Below, in pieces: positions 13,325 to 64,000 of a DNA stretch of 64,000 nucleotides. Numbering within the stretch: position 1 is the stretch's first letter; the number at the start of each line of letters is the position of its first letter. The DNA is from Pseudophaeobacter arcticus DSM 23566 (GTDB lineage Bacteria > Pseudomonadota > Alphaproteobacteria > Rhodobacterales > Rhodobacteraceae): NCBI RefSeq assembly GCF_000473205.1, contig NZ_KI421507.1:43208-107207 (forward strand). The letters run 5' to 3'. Both the position numbers and the translations under genes were made by a program. The notes under the pieces are model-generated. The model was not told the DNA's origin and made no database searches. It saw only the letters and a list, made by a program, of their open reading frames with translations.

Positions 13325-14220
13325 GCCACCTTTCGTTCGAAGGCGACAGGGCTTTTCCAGCCCAGTGCTGAATGGCGGCGGCGCGGATTGTAGAAGCCGT
13401 TGATGTATTCGAAGATCGCCATCTCGGCCTGCCGCCGTGTTTCCCATGAATGCCGCCAAATCAGTTCGGCCTTGATGGTTTTGAAGAACGTCTCGACTGC
13501 AGCGTTATCGTAGCAATTGCCTTTGCCACTCATGGACACTTTGAAGCCGTGCTGTCGCAAGATCTGTCGATAGTCGTGCGAACAATATTGCGATCCGCGA
13601 TCCGTGTGATGGATGCAGCCCTTCGGCGGCCCCCGGAAGGCTATTGCCATGTTCAACGCACGGATCGCCAGGTCCCGCTTCATCCTGTTACTCACCGCCC
13701 AGCCGATCACGCGCCTTGAATGCAGATCCAGTATCACAGCGAGATACAACCAACCTTCACGCGTCCAGATATAGCTGATGTCCATTGCCCGGCAGGGTAT
13801 TTCCGTAGGAAATGTCCCGAGAGGGGCCGCCCACTTCTGGTTTGGCCCATCAGCGTTGAAGTCCCGGTCCAACAGGTTCGGCGCGATGTTGAACTTATGA
13901 TTGCTGTCTGTAGTCACCTTGTGTTTGCGCGTTCTGATGACCGATATGCCGTTCTGGCGCATCAAGCGACCCACGCGACGATGACCAATAACCAGTCCGA
14001 TCTCTTTCAATTCCTCAGTCATGCGCGGCCTGCCATAACTGCCAAGGCTGAGACGGGATTGTTCTTTGATATGCGCCAGCGTGACCAGGTCGGACCGTTG
14101 TCTGCGGCTGGCAGGGCGACTGCGGAATGCCCGCAACCCACGTGAACTGACCCCCATGACACCGCACATCCGGCCGATAGAGAACGCAGATCGGTGTTCC
14201 TCAATGAACCTAAACCTCAC
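13321..14220 (-). CDS. IS3-family transposase OrfB (DDE integrase core)
   Basis: A 299-residue retroviral-type integrase domain, normally made as an OrfAB fusion by -1 frameshifting. DDE-region landmarks are DISYIW (first Asp), HTDRGSQY (second Asp) and NAAVETFFKTIKAE (Glu), followed by the usual PRRRHSALGWKSP ending. Just before the first Asp, between NQKWA and MDISYIW, there is an in-frame insertion of about 14 residues (APLGTFPTEIPCRA) not expected from relatives I know, where NQKWAGDISY is usual. The insertion may impair activity. Confidence 0.88.
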   Translation of the reverse strand: MRFRFIEEHRSAFSIGRMCGVMGVSSRGLRAFRSRPASRRQRSDLVTLAHIKEQSRLSLGSYGRPRMTEELKEIGLVIGHRRVGRLMRQNGISVIRTRKHKVTTDSNHKFNIAPNLLDRDFNADGPNQKWAAPLGTFPTEIPCRAMDISYIWTREGWLYLAVILDLHSRRVIGWAVSNRMKRDLAIRALNMAIAFRGPPKGCIHHTDRGSQYCSHDYRQILRQHGFKVSMSGKGNCYDNAAVETFFKTIKAELIWRHSWETRRQAEMAIFEYINGFYNPRRRHSALGWKSPVAFERKVA

Positions 14221-14492
14221 GGCTTTTGGCTCGCGAAGAACACCGTGGCCTTTTTTAAGATTTCCCGCTCCTCCTTGAGAATGCGGTTCTCGCGCCGAAG
14301 CCGGTCATTCTCTTGGGCGAGGCCTAAATCCTCTTTCGTCACCACACCCGTGTCTCTGTATGCCGTGATCCATTTGTTCAGCGTCGACATGCCCACACCT
14401 AGGTCATCAGCTACCTGATTGCGCGTTAGCCCACTGGTCAGTGCTATCCGCACCGCATCCTGGCGAAATTCGTCCGTCCGTTTCAGTCCCAT
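14217..14492 (-). CDS. IS3-family transposase OrfA (helix-turn-helix)
   Basis: A 91-residue DNA-binding protein: an HTH segment (GLTRNQVADDLGVGMSTLNKW) followed by a leucine-zipper-like coiled coil (LAQENDRLRRENRILKEERE). A slippery A6-G heptamer on the minus strand (14256 to 14250) near the end of the frame is the likely -1 frameshift site for making OrfAB. The OrfA stop overlaps the OrfB GTG by 4 bases. Confidence 0.9.
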   Translation of the reverse strand: MGLKRTDEFRQDAVRIALTSGLTRNQVADDLGVGMSTLNKWITAYRDTGVVTKEDLGLAQENDRLRRENRILKEEREILKKATVFFASQKP

Positions 14493-14555
14493 AGTTCATC
14501 TCCTTTGTTGCAGTAAATGCTATCAAAGGAGCGGCATCAAACCGCGACAGGTCCA

Positions 14556-14619
14556 CTTCGACGACCTGCGGGAGGATTTATGGATATCTGTTGATTGGAA
14601 GCCGGAAGATATTCTTTGA
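14556..14619 (+). pseudogene. 3' end of a gene interrupted by the IS3 element
   Basis: When the IS3 element and one copy of the CTT duplication are removed, bases before 13283 join to 14559 onward. In the joined frame the last residues read SGFDDLREDLWISVDWKPED then IL and a stop at about 14619, which looks like a real protein end. The gene's identity is unknown because its upstream part is itself scrambled. Confidence 0.4.
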
Positions 14620-14662
14620 GACGCTATTGTAGAACCCCTGCTGAGCCATCACATAGATGACA

Positions 14663-14689
14663 TTGGCACTCCGGTATGGCGAGTGCCAG
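14663..14689 (+). promoter_or_regulatory. CIRCE operator (HrcA-binding) upstream of groES
   Basis: TTGGCACTC-N9-GAGTGCCAG, a nearly perfect inverted repeat with the exact 9-base spacer of the CIRCE element (consensus TTAGCACTC-N9-GAGTGCTAA). It lies 54 bases before the groES start. This predicts repression by HrcA and induction when chaperonin is titrated by unfolded protein. Confidence 0.92.
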
Positions 14690-14743
14690 TGCACCTTCGA
14701 ACATCGCCATGCTCCCTTGGACATCCGAAGAAGGAGCACTTAA

Positions 14744-15031
14744 TTGACGTTCACTCCACTCCACGACCGGGTTCTCGTCCGCCGCATTGAAGGCGACGCG
14801 AAGACCTCAGGCGGGCTTATCATCCCCGACACCGCAAAAGAGAAGCCGCAGGAAGGCGAGATCGTCGCGACCGGCGCCGGCGCCATGGACGAGGATGGCG
14901 AACGCATCGCCATGGACGTCAAGGCGGGCGACCAGATCCTGTTCGGAAAATGGTCGGGAACCGAAATCAAGCTCGACGGCGAAACCCTCATGATCATGAA
15001 GGAGAGCGACATTCTCGGCGTCATGACCTGA
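14744..15031 (+). CDS. groES: GroES co-chaperonin (second copy)
   Basis: A 95-residue GroES (10-kDa chaperonin), full length. Family landmarks are [10 protein letters not shown] at the N terminus, the mobile-loop region [15 protein letters not shown], and a C terminus ESDILGVMT. The start is a TTG; the AAGGAG just upstream fixes it, and no ATG is available. It forms the heptameric lid of the GroEL cage encoded 44 bases downstream. Its position among insertion sequences suggests an accessory chaperonin rather than the housekeeping pair. Confidence 0.96.
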
Positions 15032-15075
15032 CCCCGACAGCGACGCCGTAATTTCATTCTCAGGAGCACCCAATC

Positions 15076-16713
<1,638 letters not shown>

Positions 16714-56340: not shown

Positions 56341-57368
56341 GCGGGCTCAAGGTACTTCGCATTGGTCCGCTTGCCTCGATCCAGGATCAGGGGCGCCCGG
56401 GACAATTGCAACAAGGGGTCTCTTGTGGTGGCGCTGCTGATCTTTTGGCCCTGGCCGAGGGCGCGGCGCTGTTGCGGCAAGATGCACATCTGGCCGCGCT
56501 GGAGATGGCCGGGATCGGCGGGCTGTTTGAGGCAACCGGCCCCCTGCGTATTGCCCTGACGGGGGCACCGATGCAGGCGAGCCTTGATGGCGAAAGCCTC
56601 GCCTGGAACGCCTCGCATCAGGTCCAGGCGGGGCAGAAACTGGAGATCGGCGCCGCGCGCAAGGGGCTATATGGCTATTTGCACCTGGGCGGTGGCATCG
56701 CCAGCGAGGTGCTGCTTGGCGCCCGTGCCGTGCATGTGATGTCTGGTCTGGGCAGCCCTGTCGCGGTGGGGGATCTGCTGCCCTGCGGTGCGGACCGTGG
56801 TCGCGAAGTTGGACTTGGGCTGGTGGCTGAGGACCGGTTTCAGGGCGGAGCCTTGCGGATCGTTGAGGGCTTTCAGTCTGATTTATTTACCGCCGAGGTG
56901 CGGGCGCGGTTTGCCGATACAGCCTTTAAACGGGGCAGTCGGGCCAACCGGATGGGGGTTGAGATGATCTCTGACGGGGCGGGGTTCTCGGCGGCAGGGC
57001 AGCTCAACATCCTGTCCGAGGTGATCCTGCCGGGGGATGTGCAGATGACCGGCGACGGCAAACCCTTTGTGCTGCTGCGCGAGGCGCAAACCACCGGGGG
57101 CTATCCGCGGATCGGCACGGTTTTGCCCTGTGATCTGAGCAAGGTGGCGCAGGCACAGGCCGGGATGGATCTGCAGTTTGTTTGGGTTACTCTGGACGAG
57201 GGGCTGGCGATCCAGGCCAGACACGATGCTATGGTGAAAGCGCTGCCTTCGGCCTGCAAGCCCCTATTGCGTGATCCGGCGATGATGCAGGATCTGCTTT
57301 CTTTTCAACTGGTCAGCGGGGTGGTCTCGGCAGAGGCGGACCCTTTTGAATCTGGAGACATCACATGA
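56337..57368 (+). CDS. pxpC: 5-oxoprolinase subunit PxpC (KipA/biotin-dependent carboxyltransferase-like)
   Basis: A 343-residue protein of the AHS2/KipA family; similar domains occur in urea amidolyase. Early block IQDQGRPGQLQQGVSCGGAA and later block GSRANRMGVEMISD are characteristic. It forms the PxpBC complex that activates 5-oxoproline. It overlaps pxpB and pxpA by 4 bases each, so the three are translationally coupled. Confidence 0.9.
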   Translation: MSGLKVLRIGPLASIQDQGRPGQLQQGVSCGGAADLLALAEGAALLRQDAHLAALEMAGIGGLFEATGPLRIALTGAPMQASLDGESLAWNASHQVQAGQKLEIGAARKGLYGYLHLGGGIASEVLLGARAVHVMSGLGSPVAVGDLLPCGADRGREVGLGLVAEDRFQGGALRIVEGFQSDLFTAEVRARFADTAFKRGSRANRMGVEMISDGAGFSAAGQLNILSEVILPGDVQMTGDGKPFVLLREAQTTGGYPRIGTVLPCDLSKVAQAQAGMDLQFVWVTLDEGLAIQARHDAMVKALPSACKPLLRDPAMMQDLLSFQLVSGVVSAEADPFESGDIT

Positions 57369-58168
57369 GCAACACTGACGCGGTAAAAACGAGCACGGCA
57401 AAAACTGTCGATCTCAACGCGGATATGGGCGAAAGCTTTGGCCCCTGGACCATGGGCGACGACACCGCTTTGCTGGATATTGTGACCTCGGCCAATATCG
57501 CCTGTGGTTTCCATGCGGGCGATGCGGATGTGATGGCCGCGACCATGGCGTTGGCGCGGGACAACGGCGTGGGCATCGGGGCGCATCCCGGTTTCCCGGA
57601 TCTGCAGGGCTTTGGCCGTCGCAAGATGCAGATGACCCCGGCCAGCCTGGGCAATATGGTGCGCTACCAGCTGGGCGCGGCACGCGGCATGGCGGCAGCG
57701 CAGGGCGCCGAGGTGCGGCATTTGAAATTGCACGGGGCGCTGTCCAATATGGCCTGTGTTGATCACGCCATGGCGCGCGCCTGCTATGAGGCGGCACTGG
57801 AGGTGGACCCGGATATCATCATCATGGTTCTGGCCGCCACCGCAATGGAAGAGGTGGTGCGTGATCTGGGCTGCAACTGGTGTGGCGAGATCTTTGCCGA
57901 TCGGGCCTATAATGATGATGGCACCCTGGTGGATCGCTCGTTGCCGGGGGCGGTGATCCATGATGCGGATCTGGCCGGGCCGCGCATCCTGCAGATGGTG
58001 CAGGAAGGCGCGATCATTACCGAAAGCGGCAAGCGCATTGCCACCTCGATTGATACCATCTGCCTGCATGGGGATACGGCCGAGGCGGTGCAGCTGGCGC
58101 AATCCGTGCGCAACAGTCTGCAGGCCGGTGGCGTTGAGCTGGCGCAGTTCAAAGGCCGCAGAGGCTAG
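57365..58168 (+). CDS. pxpA: 5-oxoprolinase subunit PxpA (LamB/YcsF family)
   Basis: A 267-residue LamB/YcsF protein. DLNADMGESFGPW, SANIACGFHAGDADVMAATM, GAHPGFPDLQGFGRR and VRHLKLHGALSNM are all canonical. It has a metal-dependent deacetylase-like barrel and hydrolyses the activated 5-oxoproline. Order pxpB-pxpC-pxpA. Confidence 0.93.
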   Translation: MSNTDAVKTSTAKTVDLNADMGESFGPWTMGDDTALLDIVTSANIACGFHAGDADVMAATMALARDNGVGIGAHPGFPDLQGFGRRKMQMTPASLGNMVRYQLGAARGMAAAQGAEVRHLKLHGALSNMACVDHAMARACYEAALEVDPDIIIMVLAATAMEEVVRDLGCNWCGEIFADRAYNDDGTLVDRSLPGAVIHDADLAGPRILQMVQEGAIITESGKRIATSIDTICLHGDTAEAVQLAQSVRNSLQAGGVELAQFKGRRG

Positions 58169-58228
58169 CGGATCCTTGATCCTCAGCCCTGTTCCTCAAT
58201 GCCCAGGCCCTCAGCTCAGCTCAGGCCC

Positions 58229-59017
58229 TCAGTCCATGGCATTGAGGATCAGGGTGGCAATCTGGGTTGAGGAATGAACGCCCAGCTTGCCATAGGCGCG
58301 GCGGCGCAGGGTGCGAATGGTGTTCTCAGAGACCCCCAGCTCCAGCGCGGTGCCTGCCACGCTGAGCCCCTGCACCCCCAGATCACAGACCTCGGCCTCG
58401 CGCGGGGTGAGGGCGCCAAAGGGACCGGCATCCCGGTCGCGTAGGGCGGACGCCCGTCCACTGGCCACCTGTCCAATGGCGGCGGCCCCGGCGATCCGGT
58501 GGCGCAGCCCGATCAGCTCATGCGCCAGTGGCAGAACCTGTTGCAGGCGCTGCATATCCTGGTCAGAGAGCCAGCCGGATTTTTCGCCTCGCAAGAAGAA
58601 GGATTGAAAGCCAACCCGCTCATTCAGGGAGGAGACCGTGACCCGTTCGATGACCTGATCGCGGGCGTAGATCGGGCTGATCGGATCTTCGGGGCTCGGG
58701 CGCCAGCGCTCGATCATCAGCCCGCCGGTTTGGGCGGCACGGATCCGTTGCAGGATGCTCTGCATCAGGCGCTCGTTCTTCAGGATCGTGCTGGCATTCC
58801 GGTTGAACCAATAGCCGCTCATCTCGCCCGCCCAGATCGACAGGACGGGCGTCGGGCGGGCCATGTCCGGGACATAGAAGGTGCCAAAATTGGCAATCTC
58901 AGCCGCGGTGCGAATGTAGCGCAGCAGATGGCGGGCAAAATCCGGCCGCACAACGGCGGCTGCAAGCTCGGCAACACCGTCACGGGGGAGGGGCCTGGGC
59001 GGAAAGATGTCACTCAT
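58229..59017 (-). CDS. LuxR-family transcriptional regulator
   Basis: A 262-residue regulator. The C-terminal GerE/LuxR helix-turn-helix (GALTPREAEVCDLGVQGLSV then GVSENTIRTLRRRAYGKLGV) occupies residues ~195-260. The N-terminal ~190 residues lack an autoinducer-binding or receiver signature that I recognise, so the signal is unknown. It is divergent from the reductive dehalogenase gene across a 77-base gap, the usual arrangement of a local regulator, so it may respond to a halogenated aromatic; this is inference. Confidence 0.82.
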   Translation of the reverse strand: MSDIFPPRPLPRDGVAELAAAVVRPDFARHLLRYIRTAAEIANFGTFYVPDMARPTPVLSIWAGEMSGYWFNRNASTILKNERLMQSILQRIRAAQTGGLMIERWRPSPEDPISPIYARDQVIERVTVSSLNERVGFQSFFLRGEKSGWLSDQDMQRLQQVLPLAHELIGLRHRIAGAAAIGQVASGRASALRDRDAGPFGALTPREAEVCDLGVQGLSVAGTALELGVSENTIRTLRRRAYGKLGVHSSTQIATLILNAMD

Positions 59018-59094
59018 TCGGGTGACAGACTGGCGCGGTCACTGTGGAATAGTCAAGCCACTTCCACAGATCCCAGCTGCGAGGCCCGGCCATC

Positions 59095-62000
59095 ATGACC
59101 AAAGTCTTTTCAACCCGGCAGCGCCCGATCCATCTGGGCCCCTTTCCGTTGGAGCGACTGGTGCGCGGGCCGATGCCGGATCTTGGTGCCGTGCCTGCCG
59201 CGCAGCCGCTGGAGTTCCGCCGTCCCACGGCGCCTGCCTCGATCATCAATGCGATGGGGGAGTATCAGGCGATGATGGATGCGGTGCGCGATGGGCTGGT
59301 GAACAAGGCACAGGCCAGCTGTCCCGGTGATCCACAGGAGCGCGCCGATCATATCAAGGCCTTTGGCTATTTCGCGGATGCGGCCATGGTGGGGATCGGC
59401 CCGGTGCCAGCCTCAGCCCGGCTGGCGCAGCCCTATCGCAACCCGGATATTGACCGGCTGTCGGAGGATCTGAAAACCCGCCAGACAAAGACGCTGGCGG
59501 CGGGCATTGATCACATCATGGCCGACCTCAAAGAGGCGATGCAGGCGCCGCCGACCACCATTGGCGATCATAAGCACGCCATTGTCTTTCTCTATGACAT
59601 GCCGCGTGATCCGCGCGTCGATGAAGAGGGCGCCGAGTGGATCCAGGGGGCTGCCCGCCACCGGGCCTGCCTGCGTGCCAGCGAAACCGCCGTGGTGCTG
59701 GCCAATTATATCCGGCTGTTGGGCTGGGATGCCAAGGCCCATACCGGCACCTCGTCCGATGTGGACCTCAACCAGTTGGCGGTGGCCGCTGGGCTGGTCA
59801 CGGTGCAGGAGGGGCATCTGGTTTGCCCCTATCTGGGGGACCGCTTTGGTCTGGCGGTGGTGACCACCGATTTTGACCTCGCCATGGACCGGCCGCTGCT
59901 GCCGCTGGATCAGCAGCCGATGGTGCAGCTCAAGGGGCCAAAATGGTGGTTGGGGCTGGGCTCGCAGCGCTCTGCCCTGAATGGCGATCCCTTCAAGGCG
60001 CGCGATTTCAAGGATGGCCCGCACCCCTTTGAAACGCTGAAACGGGTGGCGGATCCCACTACCTATATAGATGAGCCCAATGTGGCACGGGTGCCAAAAC
60101 GTGCCGATATGTTTGCCCGCAGCCAGTTTGGGGACATGGGAAAGGGCAATCAGACGGCAGCCACGGGTGGCTTTTATGTGCGCAAAGCAGCGCCGTCGAT
60201 GGCGCAGCGCCGGATGCTGGGCGCCTTTGTGCTGTTGCAGGATGGCACGCCCGCCAGGGGCCCGCGCCCCAGCGATGCGGCGCGCAATGCTGCCAATATC
60301 AAAGCGGCCAGCTATTGGCTGGGCATTGATGCGGTTGGTATCAGCCGCTGCCCGGACTGGACCTGGTACAGCCATGACGCCACCGGCGCCGAGATCCACC
60401 CCGAACATGATCAGGCGATCAGCATGATTGTCGATCAGGGCTTTGACACCACCGAGGGCACCTCGGGGGATGACTGGATCGCGGTGGCCCAGTCGATGCG
60501 GGCCTATCTGCGGTTCTCGCTGCTGGGCGGTGTCATTGCCCGCCAGATCCGCAACTTGGGCTACAAGGCCAAGGCCCATACGGTGATGGATGGCGAGGTG
60601 TTGCAGCCGCCCTTGCTGCTGCTCTCGGGCCTGGGAGAGGTCAGCCGGATTGGTGAAGTCATCCTCAACCCCTTTCTGGGGCCAAGGTTGAAATCCGGCG
60701 TGGTGAGTACCGATATGCCGATGACCCATGATGCACCGATCGACTTTGGCCTGCAGAAATTCTGCGAGGCCTGCAATAAATGCGCCCGTGAATGCCCCTC
60801 GGGGGCGATCACTGCCGGACCCAAGCTGATGTTCAACGGCTATGAGATCTGGAAAAGCGACAGTCAGAAATGCACCACCTACCGGATTACCACGCCGGGC
60901 GGCGCCATGTGTGGGCGCTGCATGAAAACCTGCCCCTGGAACCTGGAGGGCATCTTTGCCGAGCGCCCGTTCCGTTGGGCGGCGATGAATATTCCCCAGG
61001 CCGCGCCGGTGCTGGCCAAACTGGACGATGCGCTGGGCAATGGCGAGATGAACCCGGCCAAGAAATGGTGGTGGGACCTGGAGATGCAAGAGGACGGAGG
61101 CTACCGCCCGACACGCCATCCGGTAAATGCCCGTGCCCTGCAAAAGGATCTGGATCTGAAGTATGAGGACCAGACACTGGCGGTCTACCCGGCGCATCTG
61201 GCGCCGCATCCCTGGCCCTACCCCTTCCCGATGGACCGCGAGGCCGGGATCGAAGCCTACCAGCAGATGATCACAGCCGAGGACTACAAGGCGCGCCGCG
61301 CCAAAGGAGAGACCGGCACCTGGGATCACCGCTATAGCAGTGATGTGGACAGCCCGGTGCTTGGCGTGCGGGTGTCGCGGGTCGACGCCATGAGCCCGGA
61401 GGTGACCAAATACGAATTTCAAAGCCTGGACGGCTCCCCCTTGCCGGAATGGACGGCGGGCGCCCATCTCGACATCGTGGTGGCGCCGGAATACCTGCGC
61501 CAGTATTCCATGTCCGGTGACCCGGCGGATCGCTCCAAATACCAGATCGGGGTGCTGCGCGAGGACGCCGGGCGCGGCGGCTCGCTGCTGTTGCACCGGA
61601 TCTTTGCCGAGGGGCGCAAGATTTTTATCTCCAAACCGATCAACCATTTCCCGCTCAGAGAGGAGGCTGCAAAATCCTACCTCATGGGCGGTGGCATCGG
61701 GGTGACGCCAATGATCGCCATGGCGCATCGGCTGCATGCGCTGGGCCAGGAATTTGAGCTGCATTACTCGATCTCCAACCGGGCGGCGGCGGGCTATCTG
61801 CAGGATCTTGCGCAGATGCCCTGGTCCGACAGGGTGCATATCCATGTCTCGGCTGAGGGTACGCGGGCTGATCTGGATCTGCTGCTGGCAGGCTACGCGC
61901 CGGGGCAGCATGTCTACACCTGCGGGCCGGATCGCTACATGGAGGCGGTGATGCAGGCGGCAGAGCGGCAGGGCTTCCCCGAAGAGGCGCGCCATCTTGA

Positions 62001-62304
62001 GTATTTCTCGGTGCCAGAGCTGCCAGAGTATGAAAACCATACCTTTACCCTCAAACTGGCCCGGTCGGGCAGGGTGCTTGAGGTGCCTGCGGACAAGACC
62101 GCAACCGATGTCTTGCTGGAAAACGGCGTTCATATCGACGTGAAATGTTCGGACGGTATTTGCGGCGTGTGCAAATGTGGCCTGTTGTCCGGTGAGGTCG
62201 AGCACCGCGACTTTGTGCTGTCCAAAGCGCAGCGCAAGGATGCAGTGATCCTGTGCCAGTCGCGGGCCGCCCACAAGGATGGCACCATCGAGGTGGACCT
62301 GTAA
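59095..62304 (+). CDS. Self-sufficient reductive dehalogenase fused to flavin/NAD/2Fe-2S reductase
   Basis: A 1069-residue fusion. Residues ~1-700 form a cobalamin-dependent RdhA core ending in two 4Fe-4S motifs: CEACNKCARECP (C557, 560, 563, 567) and C593 with CGRCMKTCP (C606, 609, 613). Residues ~735-980 form a ferredoxin-reductase-like unit: RQYSMSGDP for flavin and GGGIGVTPM for NAD(P)H. Residues ~985-1069 form a plant-type 2Fe-2S ferredoxin (C1018, C1023, C1026, C1054). There is no Tat signal and no RdhB anchor gene, so it is cytoplasmic. The layout matches BhbA of Comamonas and NpRdhA of Nitratireductor, which remove halogens from hydroxybenzoates or phenols with NAD(P)H under air. Confidence 0.93.
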   Translation: MTKVFSTRQRPIHLGPFPLERLVRGPMPDLGAVPAAQPLEFRRPTAPASIINAMGEYQAMMDAVRDGLVNKAQASCPGDPQERADHIKAFGYFADAAMVGIGPVPASARLAQPYRNPDIDRLSEDLKTRQTKTLAAGIDHIMADLKEAMQAPPTTIGDHKHAIVFLYDMPRDPRVDEEGAEWIQGAARHRACLRASETAVVLANYIRLLGWDAKAHTGTSSDVDLNQLAVAAGLVTVQEGHLVCPYLGDRFGLAVVTTDFDLAMDRPLLPLDQQPMVQLKGPKWWLGLGSQRSALNGDPFKARDFKDGPHPFETLKRVADPTTYIDEPNVARVPKRADMFARSQFGDMGKGNQTAATGGFYVRKAAPSMAQRRMLGAFVLLQDGTPARGPRPSDAARNAANIKAASYWLGIDAVGISRCPDWTWYSHDATGAEIHPEHDQAISMIVDQGFDTTEGTSGDDWIAVAQSMRAYLRFSLLGGVIARQIRNLGYKAKAHTVMDGEVLQPPLLLLSGLGEVSRIGEVILNPFLGPRLKSGVVSTDMPMTHDAPIDFGLQKFCEACNKCARECPSGAITAGPKLMFNGYEIWKSDSQKCTTYRITTPGGAMCGRCMKTCPWNLEGIFAERPFRWAAMNIPQAAPVLAKLDDALGNGEMNPAKKWWWDLEMQEDGGYRPTRHPVNARALQKDLDLKYEDQTLAVYPAHLAPHPWPYPFPMDREAGIEAYQQMITAEDYKARRAKGETGTWDHRYSSDVDSPVLGVRVSRVDAMSPEVTKYEFQSLDGSPLPEWTAGAHLDIVVAPEYLRQYSMSGDPADRSKYQIGVLREDAGRGGSLLLHRIFAEGRKIFISKPINHFPLREEAAKSYLMGGGIGVTPMIAMAHRLHALGQEFELHYSISNRAAAGYLQDLAQMPWSDRVHIHVSAEGTRADLDLLLAGYAPGQHVYTCGPDRYMEAVMQAAERQGFPEEARHLEYFSVPELPEYENHTFTLKLARSGRVLEVPADKTATDVLLENGVHIDVKCSDGICGVCKCGLLSGEVEHRDFVLSKAQRKDAVILCQSRAAHKDGTIEVDL

Positions 62305-62319
62305 GCGGCAGGGGCTGCC

Positions 62320-63189
62320 CTAGTGGCCGAACCAATTGGGAAGTGTGGTTCGAAACTGAAACCGCAGGCTCTTGCAGCGCAGGACAGAGCTGGCCTCGTC
62401 CCGCACCGGGGATTGCAGGCTGCTCCAGGCGGTTTCTTCGGCCTCCTGCCAGGGCAGATGCGGCAGCGCCTCTGCCTCTGCAAGCTTGTCCACCGCTTCC
62501 TTTGCCGCCTGCTGCCAGGCCTTTCCGGGGCTGCCTGGGCCTTTGGTATTGGCCACCTCATGGCGTACCTCGGTCATGGCCGACAGGGCAGCGACATCCG
62601 CATATTTCAAATGGGCAAGGTAGACCCCCCGTGGCATGGCAAAGGGAAACTGTGCCAGCCGTGCCGGGCGCAGCTGAATCCCATGACGGCGCAGCCCGAT
62701 GGGCCTGCGGACCGCCCAGGCCTTGCTATAATGGCCGGTAAAAACGGCGGCGCGGGTCCTGGCAAAGACAGGTGCTTTGGGGGCCTCGGCTGCGTCAGCT
62801 TCTGCGTCTGAGAAATCAAACAGATTAAACCCAAGCGCAAAAAGCGCAGGCGCCTGTTGCTGGGCCAGCATGTCGGCAAGCGATCCCCAGCGGGCGGGAT
62901 CCAGGCAAATCAGCTCATCCGCATCTGTTCGAATGACCCAGTCATAGATCTCCAGCAGGCCCTGTTGAAACCCATTCAGCATCCGTCCCCGCCAATGGTC
63001 AAACCCCTGCAGGCGATCCCGCGGGATGGTCAGCACCGAAGCGCCGGGGCAAATCTCCTGAATGCAAGGATCCGCGCCGTGGGACACAACATACAGATTC
63101 TCGGGGCCAAGCAGCCGGCTGTAGTGGCGAAACCATTGGGCCAAAGCCCAGTGGTCCTTATAGACCATGGTGAGTGCACAGATTTTCAT
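62320..63189 (-). CDS. Glycosyltransferase family 2-like (GT2_4) protein
   Basis: A 289-residue protein starting MKICALTMVYKDHWALAQWF, with a DWVIRTDADELICLD segment containing the DAD metal motif, and HLKYADVAALSAM near residue 205. This matches the Glyco_tranf_2_4 group common in roseobacter surface-polysaccharide loci. No membrane segment. It is convergent with the dehalogenase gene, 15 bases from its stop. Acceptor unknown. Confidence 0.8.
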   Translation of the reverse strand: MKICALTMVYKDHWALAQWFRHYSRLLGPENLYVVSHGADPCIQEICPGASVLTIPRDRLQGFDHWRGRMLNGFQQGLLEIYDWVIRTDADELICLDPARWGSLADMLAQQQAPALFALGFNLFDFSDAEADAAEAPKAPVFARTRAAVFTGHYSKAWAVRRPIGLRRHGIQLRPARLAQFPFAMPRGVYLAHLKYADVAALSAMTEVRHEVANTKGPGSPGKAWQQAAKEAVDKLAEAEALPHLPWQEAEETAWSSLQSPVRDEASSVLRCKSLRFQFRTTLPNWFGH

Positions 63190-63554
63190 GCCCGCACTAT
63201 GCGAGCACCGCAGTCGCTCGCCAAGAGCGTTTCATCAGAAAGCAGGACGACCTGAACGCGGATCTGGCGTCCTGGACCGGTTTCTGAACCGCTTCTGACC
63301 GACTCGACATCCCCCACCAGCGACTCACAGGAGGGGGAACAGCAGGCGAGTCGCCGGGTTGTCTTGTAGGTGGCGGTTGCCAAATAACTACATGTTGAGA
63401 GTAGCCCTTTGGTCCGGCTGCAAACGCTGCAGTGCCTGTGGGGGCAGGTCGTATGGAGCGAGAATTTTCTGCCAGATTGAATCGGCTTAAGGCATTGAAA
63501 ATATTAAATAATAGTTCTCTTCTGAAAAAAGGCACTGATTTTGTAATTTAGGTC
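63190..63554. other. Gap between the glycosyltransferase and the rRNA promoter
   Basis: About 365 bases with no gene seen. It contains an inverted repeat GCGACTC / GAGTCGC around 63320-63360 and an AT-rich patch near 63500-63550, which could be an UP element for the rRNA promoter that follows. Confidence 0.4.
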
Positions 63555-63583
63555 TTGCGGGTTTGTTGAGTTAACACTAGAAC
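63555..63583 (+). promoter_or_regulatory. Candidate rRNA operon promoter
   Basis: TTGCGG, 17 bases, TAGAAC followed by a run of C residues. The -10 TAGAAC plus C-rich discriminator resembles roseobacter rrn promoters as I remember them; AT-rich DNA lies just upstream. Confidence 0.55.
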
Positions 63584-63950
63584 CCCCTCTACCGGCAGCG
63601 GCGACGCGGTTTGGTGGGTTGCTTCGGCGGCCGGACGGGCCGGAGAGACGGTTGTGACGCTCGGGAGAGACCGGGGCATCTGGGGGGTGTGATGAGGCGG
63701 TTGCGCTAAGGAATTGGCGCGGTGGTCTTGTTTTTGGCCTTTGGGTGTTGCTCTTTGACATTGATGATAACTGAAGAGATATGTGGGCGGTTTGGTTCGT
63801 TTCGATGGATCAACGTCTGTATATCAACGCTCTTAGTAATATTGCGGCGCTCAAGTAGCGCAGCGGTAGCGCGATGATAGAGTGTCAGCTTCACTGTTTG
63901 AACGGTTCACTGTTTTCTTATGAAAACTGTGTACATCAAACAGATGACTT
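63584..63950 (+). ncRNA. rRNA operon leader (untranslated 5' part of the 16S transcript)
   Basis: This stretch resembles, from memory, the leader preceding 16S rRNA in roseobacters, including segments GGTGGTCTTGTTTTTGGCC, GGCGGTTTGGTTCG and ATCAACGTCTGTATATCAAC, and the final part CAGATGACTTCCAATGCGT. The conserved 16S start (AGAGTTTGATCCTGGCTCAG) is not found in the ~50 bases that remain in the window. Confidence 0.65.
63749..63760 (+). promoter_or_regulatory. boxA antitermination signal of the rRNA leader
   Basis: TGCTCTTTGACA, one base from the classical boxA consensus TGCTCTTTAACA. It is bound by NusB-S10 (rpsJ at 46174) to make rRNA transcription resistant to Rho. Confidence 0.8.
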
Positions 63951-64000
63951 CCAATGCGTGTTCAATCCTTAGCCGGGTGAACATATGGGCCTGCCCCCAA

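Follow-up and report, generated by a model that had tools for sequence, protein, structure and literature searches.

The 64,000-nucleotide stretch of DNA analysed here (the window), from Pseudophaeobacter arcticus DSM 23566 (contig NZ_KI421507.1, positions 43,208 to 107,207 of the forward strand), carries a gene, rdhA, whose predicted product joins a reductive dehalogenase (RdhA) core to a phthalate-dioxygenase-reductase (PDOR) module. The open reading frame (ORF) begins with ATG, encodes 1069 amino acids (aa) and is free of internal stops; the observation is real and far beyond chance, and the gene is intact. The features recognised in it are listed below, with the equivalent residues of NpRdhA from Nitratireductor pacificus.

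59095..62304, + strand: rdhA, putative self-sufficient reductive dehalogenase, RdhA core fused to PDOR, 1069 aa (ORF, profile and PDB matches, alignment)
59326..59895, + strand: putative degenerate copy of the RdhA domain near the N-terminus (residues ~78-267), a feature of catabolic RdhAs (second TIGR02486 match)
60379..61041, + strand: catalytic RdhA core, TIGR02486 positions 78-313 (profile matches)
60505..60507, + strand: predicted catalytic Tyr471, equivalent to the proton donor Y426 of NpRdhA (86/86 fusions)
60691..60693, + strand: Lys533, equivalent to NpRdhA K488 (86/86 fusions)
60763..60933, + strand: two 4Fe-4S clusters, eight cysteines, C557 to C613 (Pfam and alignment)
60883..60885, + strand: Arg597, equivalent to NpRdhA R552 (86/86 fusions)
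61360..62277, + strand: PDOR module, flavin/NAD(P)H/2Fe-2S reductase, residues 756-1061 (2pia match, 186.6 bits)
62146..62256, + strand: four 2Fe-2S cysteines, C1018, C1023, C1026 and C1054 (Pfam and alignment)

The NCBIfam profile RDH (TIGR02486) matched the protein with 200.7 bits (cut-off 160.35), best over residues 428-649, and the Pfam families Fer4_7, Fer4_16, Fer4 and Fer2 each exceeded their cut-offs. Sequence searches of the PDB returned NpRdhA (4ras; 537.9 bits together) in two stretches, residues 3-103 and 158-742, followed by phthalate dioxygenase reductase (2pia) over residues 756-1061, which bears out the joining of an RdhA core to a flavin/NAD(P)H/2Fe-2S reductase claimed in a preliminary description of this DNA. 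A second RDH match at residues ~78-267 (45.3 bits, alone below the cut-off; G000:C6:102533-103102) is read as a degenerate duplicate of the kind reported at the N-terminus of catabolic RdhAs (PMC10463259), and the way NpRdhA aligns, over 3-103 and then from 158, is consistent with such a vestigial copy. All eight 4Fe-4S cysteines (C557, C560, C563, C567, C593, C606, C609 and C613) and all four 2Fe-2S cysteines are present in each of 86 aligned fusions, the window's included, and these ligands, like the ORF coordinates, are as that description gave them. It had also stated that a twin-arginine translocation (Tat) signal and RdhB are lacking, and this agrees with what was found: the first 60 residues contain neither an RR.F motif nor a hydrophobic leader (Kyte-Doolittle means over 19 residues no higher than 0.52), and no 50-200 aa ORF with two transmembrane-like stretches, a candidate RdhB by a simple hydropathy test, lies within 57001-64000. 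The first 14 PDB matches of the AlphaFold model are NpRdhA chains (template modelling score normalised by target 0.80-0.82), and the next, to the reductase part, are self-sufficient P450s and phthalate dioxygenase reductase. The predicted model backs the fold and nothing finer, active-site geometry being beyond its reach.

Active-site residues were read from an alignment of 87 rows comprising the window protein, NpRdhA residues 112-699 and 85 related loci, namely the best 80 genome loci of 340 confirmed stretches and five of the 8 plasmid records covering at least 80% of the query. The conserved Tyr and Lys-Arg residues of NpRdhA, singled out in the preliminary description, are found by alignment as Tyr471, Lys533 and Arg597 in 86/86 fusions, and F340, S467 and M468, the equivalents of NpRdhA F291, S422 and M423, are likewise each present in 86/86. 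Roles of Y426, K488, R552 and S422 in NpRdhA have been described (PMC7565698). Against six close relatives the ratio of nonsynonymous to synonymous substitution rates (dN/dS) was 0.048-0.087 (Nei-Gojobori), indicating purifying selection, and with ligands and catalytic residues all kept the enzyme appears functional, as was first thought.

The fused RdhA of Roseobacter sp. MED193 (L009) is 92.1% identical to the window protein over 1069 aa; identity is 79.6% for Ruegeria TM1040 (L086), 72.6% for Jannaschia M317 (L088), 58.3% for Aminobacter SS-2016 (L090), 50.1% for Nitratireductor OM-1 (L089), 49.4% over 1064 columns for BhbA of Comamonas 7D-2 (L087) and 43.6% over 578 columns for NpRdhA. A tree of the 87 rows, made from the RdhA part only by a quick method, groups the window protein with Phaeobacter, Pseudophaeobacter and MED193 within a 20-row set (Shimodaira-Hasegawa-like approximate likelihood ratio test 99), and BhbA and Nitratireductor OM-1 pair outside the other fusions. 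Of the phylogeny proposed earlier against BhbA and NpRdhA, the tree places the window protein among roseobacters, but its deep order is unsure, the long branches of NpRdhA and L090 having been flagged and L087 and L090 perhaps joining falsely. Horizontal transfer was considered and is neither shown nor excluded by this tree, in which the window protein sits among roseobacters, orders cluster with some mixing, and Rhodobacterales account for five order changes, one of them forced by starred branches.

A match to the fusion occurs in 11 of the 12 genomes of the window's genus, nine spanning residues 1-1069 and the other two 1-874 and 3-540; the match over 1-874 only (G004:C29:202381-205005) lies within an open frame of 2585 aa, where an assembly gap is possible. 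Among 295 genomes drawn across the family, own included, a near full-length fusion, defined as a single match without stops over 1000 residues or more, with the two best candidates per genome scored, was present in 109 (among the matches listed), and some match at 1e-50 in at least 155, many of them reductase-only. Left out of the 109 were split, partial or stop-containing copies (G110, G113, G280, G107, G171 and G223) and the RdhA-only G044. Decayed copies include those with stops in G280, G107 and the second copy of G204, and one in two pieces in G110, so the gene is dispensable in places. Putative bhbA homologues are reported to be widespread in the Roseobacter clade (PMC13101508). The view that the case is unusual does not hold, since many genomes of the family carry the gene and its architecture (BhbA, JtRdhA of Jhaorihella thermophila), occurrence in a marine member of the Rhodobacteraceae and bromophenol chemistry are already in print (PMC10463259).

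Judged from its sequence, the protein very probably belongs with BhbA and JtRdhA among the catabolic, self-sufficient reductive dehalogenases. Its chemistry, electron path and likely preference for bromo- and iodo-compounds are taken by analogy from characterised relatives, and the putative 4-hydroxybenzoate-like substrate class from the gene order of some relatives. In JtRdhA electrons are reported to pass from NADPH through flavin mononucleotide, 2Fe-2S and 4Fe-4S to cobalamin; it takes brominated and iodinated but not chlorinated phenols, at 1:1 with NADPH and also in air, its best substrates being 3,5-dibromo-4-hydroxybenzoate and 3-bromo-4-hydroxyphenylacetate (PMC10463259). Motifs corresponding to this electron path are found in the window protein. 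NAD(P)H would reduce the PDOR flavin by hydride transfer, and from there single electrons would travel through the 2Fe-2S cluster and the two 4Fe-4S clusters to base-off cobalamin; the cobalt would abstract the ortho bromine (or iodine) of a phenol, and Tyr471, backed by Lys533 and Arg597, would protonate the ring carbon. PobA and protocatechuate 3,4-dioxygenase would then lead the debrominated aromatic, probably 4-hydroxybenzoate, into central catabolism. The genome itself encodes CobN, PobA (688.3 bits) and protocatechuate 3,4-dioxygenase beta, PobA and the dioxygenase being unlinked to rdhA. CobN marks the aerobic cobalamin route.

Neighbouring genes were called with a simple longest-ORF caller. 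Around rdhA in the window lie 5-oxoprolinase genes, a glycosyltransferase-like gene, an rRNA operon and the following divergent gene:

58229..59017, - strand: LuxR-family (GerE) regulator, candidate regulator of rdhA, ~78 bp away (neighbour cluster c8)

Besides the window, a LuxR gene stands at this place in five of the 85 related loci, all close kin (L006, L007, L008, L009 and L019), and 14 of the loci share the pxpC- and pxpA-like genes; reading a substrate from the window's own neighbours was abandoned, the pxpC/pxpA-like and LuxR genes being uninformative on it. Separated from rdhA by 1.76 kb on its downstream side, the rRNA operon (L096:275-6323) lies at the window end and beyond. The megaplasmid of Ruegeria TM1040 is similar, with rdhA 0.73 kb upstream of an rRNA operon (L086:11927-17611), and in MED193 rdhA lies ~4 kb upstream of a large subunit rRNA gene (L009:17294-20632), no small subunit gene being reported there. 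Some 13-15 kb past the window end, downstream of the rRNA operon, IS110-transposase-like (L096:13025-14044) and integrase-like (14219-15451) ORFs, named by eye, are perhaps part of a mobile element.

Among the related loci, full 10-kb flanks are missing on at least one side in 35 of the 80 genome loci (7 have less than 2 kb upstream and 17 less than 2 kb downstream), and linkage counts are therefore lower bounds. In five of the 85 (raw count) pobA adjoins rdhA in the same direction and within 53 bp, and in three (raw count) a sulfatase belongs to the rdhA gene chain:

L038:8826-9992; L061:13211-14386; L064:3268-4443; L075:6032-7234; L084:13217-14392: pobA beside fused rdhA (TIGR02360)
L067:8270-9994; L082:8319-9992; L075:333-1973: sulfatase genes in rdhA chain (Pfam)

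All five pobA products exceed the cut-off of TIGR02360 (4-hydroxybenzoate 3-monooxygenase), and since L061, L064 and L084 adjoin in the tree we infer about three independent cases; in L089 pobA is 3.4 kb off on the opposite strand. The sulfatase genes lie 7 and 9 bp upstream of rdhA in L067 and L082, and the chain in L075 reads sulfatase, short-chain dehydrogenase, rdhA, pobA; their products score above the Pfam cut-off and below every NCBIfam equivalog cut-off, and their cluster also holds L044, which was left out of the count as its sulfatase is 7.8 kb away. A sulfatase in the chain suggests sulfated bromophenols as natural substrates. In L045 and L046 tripartite ATP-independent periplasmic (TRAP) transporter genes lie immediately upstream of rdhA.

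A second RDH match above the cut-off in the same genome (C6, ~746.4 kb; L002:1432-2619, - strand) belongs to a short RdhA of 395 aa with the motifs CDICTKCADACP at 283 and CAICMRVCP at 337. It is 90% identical to the short RdhA of MED193 (L104, a 395-aa frame). The assayed enzyme Ros_A3X954 of MED193, whose product from 2,6-dibromophenol is 2-bromophenol, is described with motifs at 283-294 and 337-345 (PMC13101508); these motifs and their start positions fit L104 and L002, and L104 is taken to be Ros_A3X954 because G003 shares rdhA coordinates with the MED193 contig. That the window gene might be Ros_A3X954, both coming from roseobacters of one group, was rejected, as the motifs do not fit the window protein. 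The short enzyme occurs in 10 of the 12 genus genomes, the fused one in 11 and both in nine. JtRdhA is reported to act on 2,6-dibromophenol at 6.8% of its best rate (PMC10463259), and this slowness, set beside its best activities on a hydroxybenzoate and a hydroxyphenylacetate, makes it plausible by analogy that the fused and short RdhAs divide the substrates between them.

The second, short RdhA, the CobN, PobA and protocatechuate 3,4-dioxygenase genes and the pobA and sulfatase linkages point to bromo-4-hydroxybenzoate-like algal aromatics as substrates. The preliminary description had proposed a cytoplasmic, NAD(P)H-driven catabolic RdhA for a bromophenol or bromohydroxybenzoate, which fits the Tyr471/Lys533/Arg597 match and the pobA linkage in some relatives. 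Several observations weigh against this reading. No aromatic-catabolism gene was identified around rdhA in the window, and no adjoining pobA was found in 80 of the 85 loci, 35 of the 80 genome loci being without a full 10-kb flank. Ros_A3X954 is reported to be inactivated by exposure to oxygen (PMC13101508), which cuts against easy aerobic use. The likeness to JtRdhA comes from its published description rather than a measured identity, and the model has a predicted local distance difference test (pLDDT) score below 50 over parts of 505-618, the catalytic Fe-S region (mean 73.5, 36-row alignment). The window pocket has M339, A356, Y361, V362, V464 and V497 where NpRdhA has F290, K307, F310, P311, A419 and N452 and BhbA has F, S, S, V, S and A (a small alignment insertion at residues 358-359 makes the readings for 356, 361 and 362 less secure); M339, A356, Y361, V464 and V497 are thus unlike both, and the preferred substrate may therefore differ. 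K307 of NpRdhA contacts the acid group of one 3-bromo-4-hydroxybenzoate conformer (PMC7565698). The substrate cannot be read from this position, which is Ala in the window and Ser in BhbA, because BhbA is active on hydroxybenzoates all the same (PMC13101508).

The same enzyme type could instead serve a physiological substrate other than bromohydroxybenzoate, such as a bromotyrosine derivative, a bromocatechol (lanosol) or an iodophenol, perhaps for detoxification rather than carbon gain, and we regard this as a real possibility, although at less than even odds. The hydrophobic half of the pocket, unlike that of BhbA and NpRdhA, is nearly constant among the 85 aligned relatives (M for NpRdhA F290 in 79, and Y for F310, V for A419 and V for N452 in 82 each), which favours such a substrate, as do the loci without adjoining pobA, the three chains with a sulfatase, the red-algal origin of lanosol-4,7-disulfate and 3,5-dibromotyrosine (PMC9322897) and the ready use of iodophenols by JtRdhA (PMC10463259). 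However, the five pobA-linked members share the majority letters at nearly all compared pocket positions, which argues for one substrate class, and the genome carries PobA and protocatechuate dioxygenase. A full account, in which the marine fused-RdhA clade removes the bromine in an aerobic pathway that breaks down red-algal (sulfated) bromophenols, with the sulfatase freeing the phenol, fused RdhA and NADPH debrominating bromo-4-hydroxybenzoate-like acids, PobA leading on to protocatechuate and, in the window's genus, the short RdhA taking simple bromophenols such as 2,6-dibromophenol, is speculative and in its entirety rather doubtful. Other functions fare far worse. A passenger gene, functionally decayed or rarely expressed, is very unlikely: split or stop-containing copies do occur in the family, but here the frame is intact, every ligand is present, selection is purifying and the gene is kept in nearly all genomes of the genus. 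Epoxyqueuosine reductase (QueG), or another class III corrinoid enzyme with a reductase, is extremely unlikely, as the TIGR00276 match is weak (21.3 bits, cut-off 200) whereas RDH exceeds its cut-off and the NpRdhA-type Y/K/R/S/M/F set is found in 86/86; a separate 368-aa frame elsewhere in the genome, with a weak RDH match, may be the real QueG. A respiratory RdhA acting as terminal reductase of organohalide respiration would have an RDH core and two 4Fe-4S motifs as well, yet that role is scarcely credible here and is contradicted by the anatomy: the protein is fused to its own NAD(P)H reductase and lacks a Tat-like signal, and by the hydropathy test no small membrane ORF resembling RdhB lies within 57001-64000.

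The catabolic, fused RdhA inferred here adds sequence support to the idea that NAD(P)H-driven reductive debromination is common and conserved among marine roseobacters. If the window enzyme works in air like JtRdhA, marine bromophenol turnover need not await anoxic halorespirers. The natural substrate is open to direct testing through the short RdhA that accompanies the fused one in most genomes of the genus and through the pobA and sulfatase chains of a few relatives.

In the literature searched, which covered few subscription journals, we found, among the records listed, no assay of a fused enzyme from the window's genus, no functional data on the fused RdhA of MED193 and no paper joining reductive dehalogenase, sulfatase and bromophenol. 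Among known systems, JtRdhA (WP_104007082), from a marine member of the Rhodobacteraceae, is described as an RdhA and PDOR fusion like the window protein, with equivalents of Y426, K488 and R552 and without a Tat signal; it was purified and shown to dehalogenate bromo- and iodophenols with NADPH, also in air (PMC10463259). BhbA, encoded on plasmid pBHB of Comamonas sp. 7D-2 with ligAB nearby, is likewise a full-length fusion with the same cluster ligands and catalytic residues, but stands with Nitratireductor OM-1 outside the clade of other alphaproteobacterial fusions and has other pocket letters. Both BhbA and NpRdhA had been offered as examples of the architecture, and only BhbA fits: NpRdhA (PDB 4ras, 6zxu, 6zy0 and 6zy1) shares the RdhA core, the N-terminal duplicate and the Y/K/R/S/M/F set, but is described as naturally truncated, with no fused reductase and with ferredoxin-type partner genes beside it (PMC10463259), and the PDOR fusion places the window protein outside this unfused class with separate ferredoxins. 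Ros_A3X954 is also a catabolic RdhA, from a close roseobacter relative of DSM 23566, and debrominates 2,6-dibromophenol (PMC13101508), but it is short and unfused, its counterpart being the second RdhA of the DSM 23566 genome. The counterpart of the window protein in MED193 is the fused RdhA, which shares with it the LuxR neighbour as well as 92.1% of its residues.

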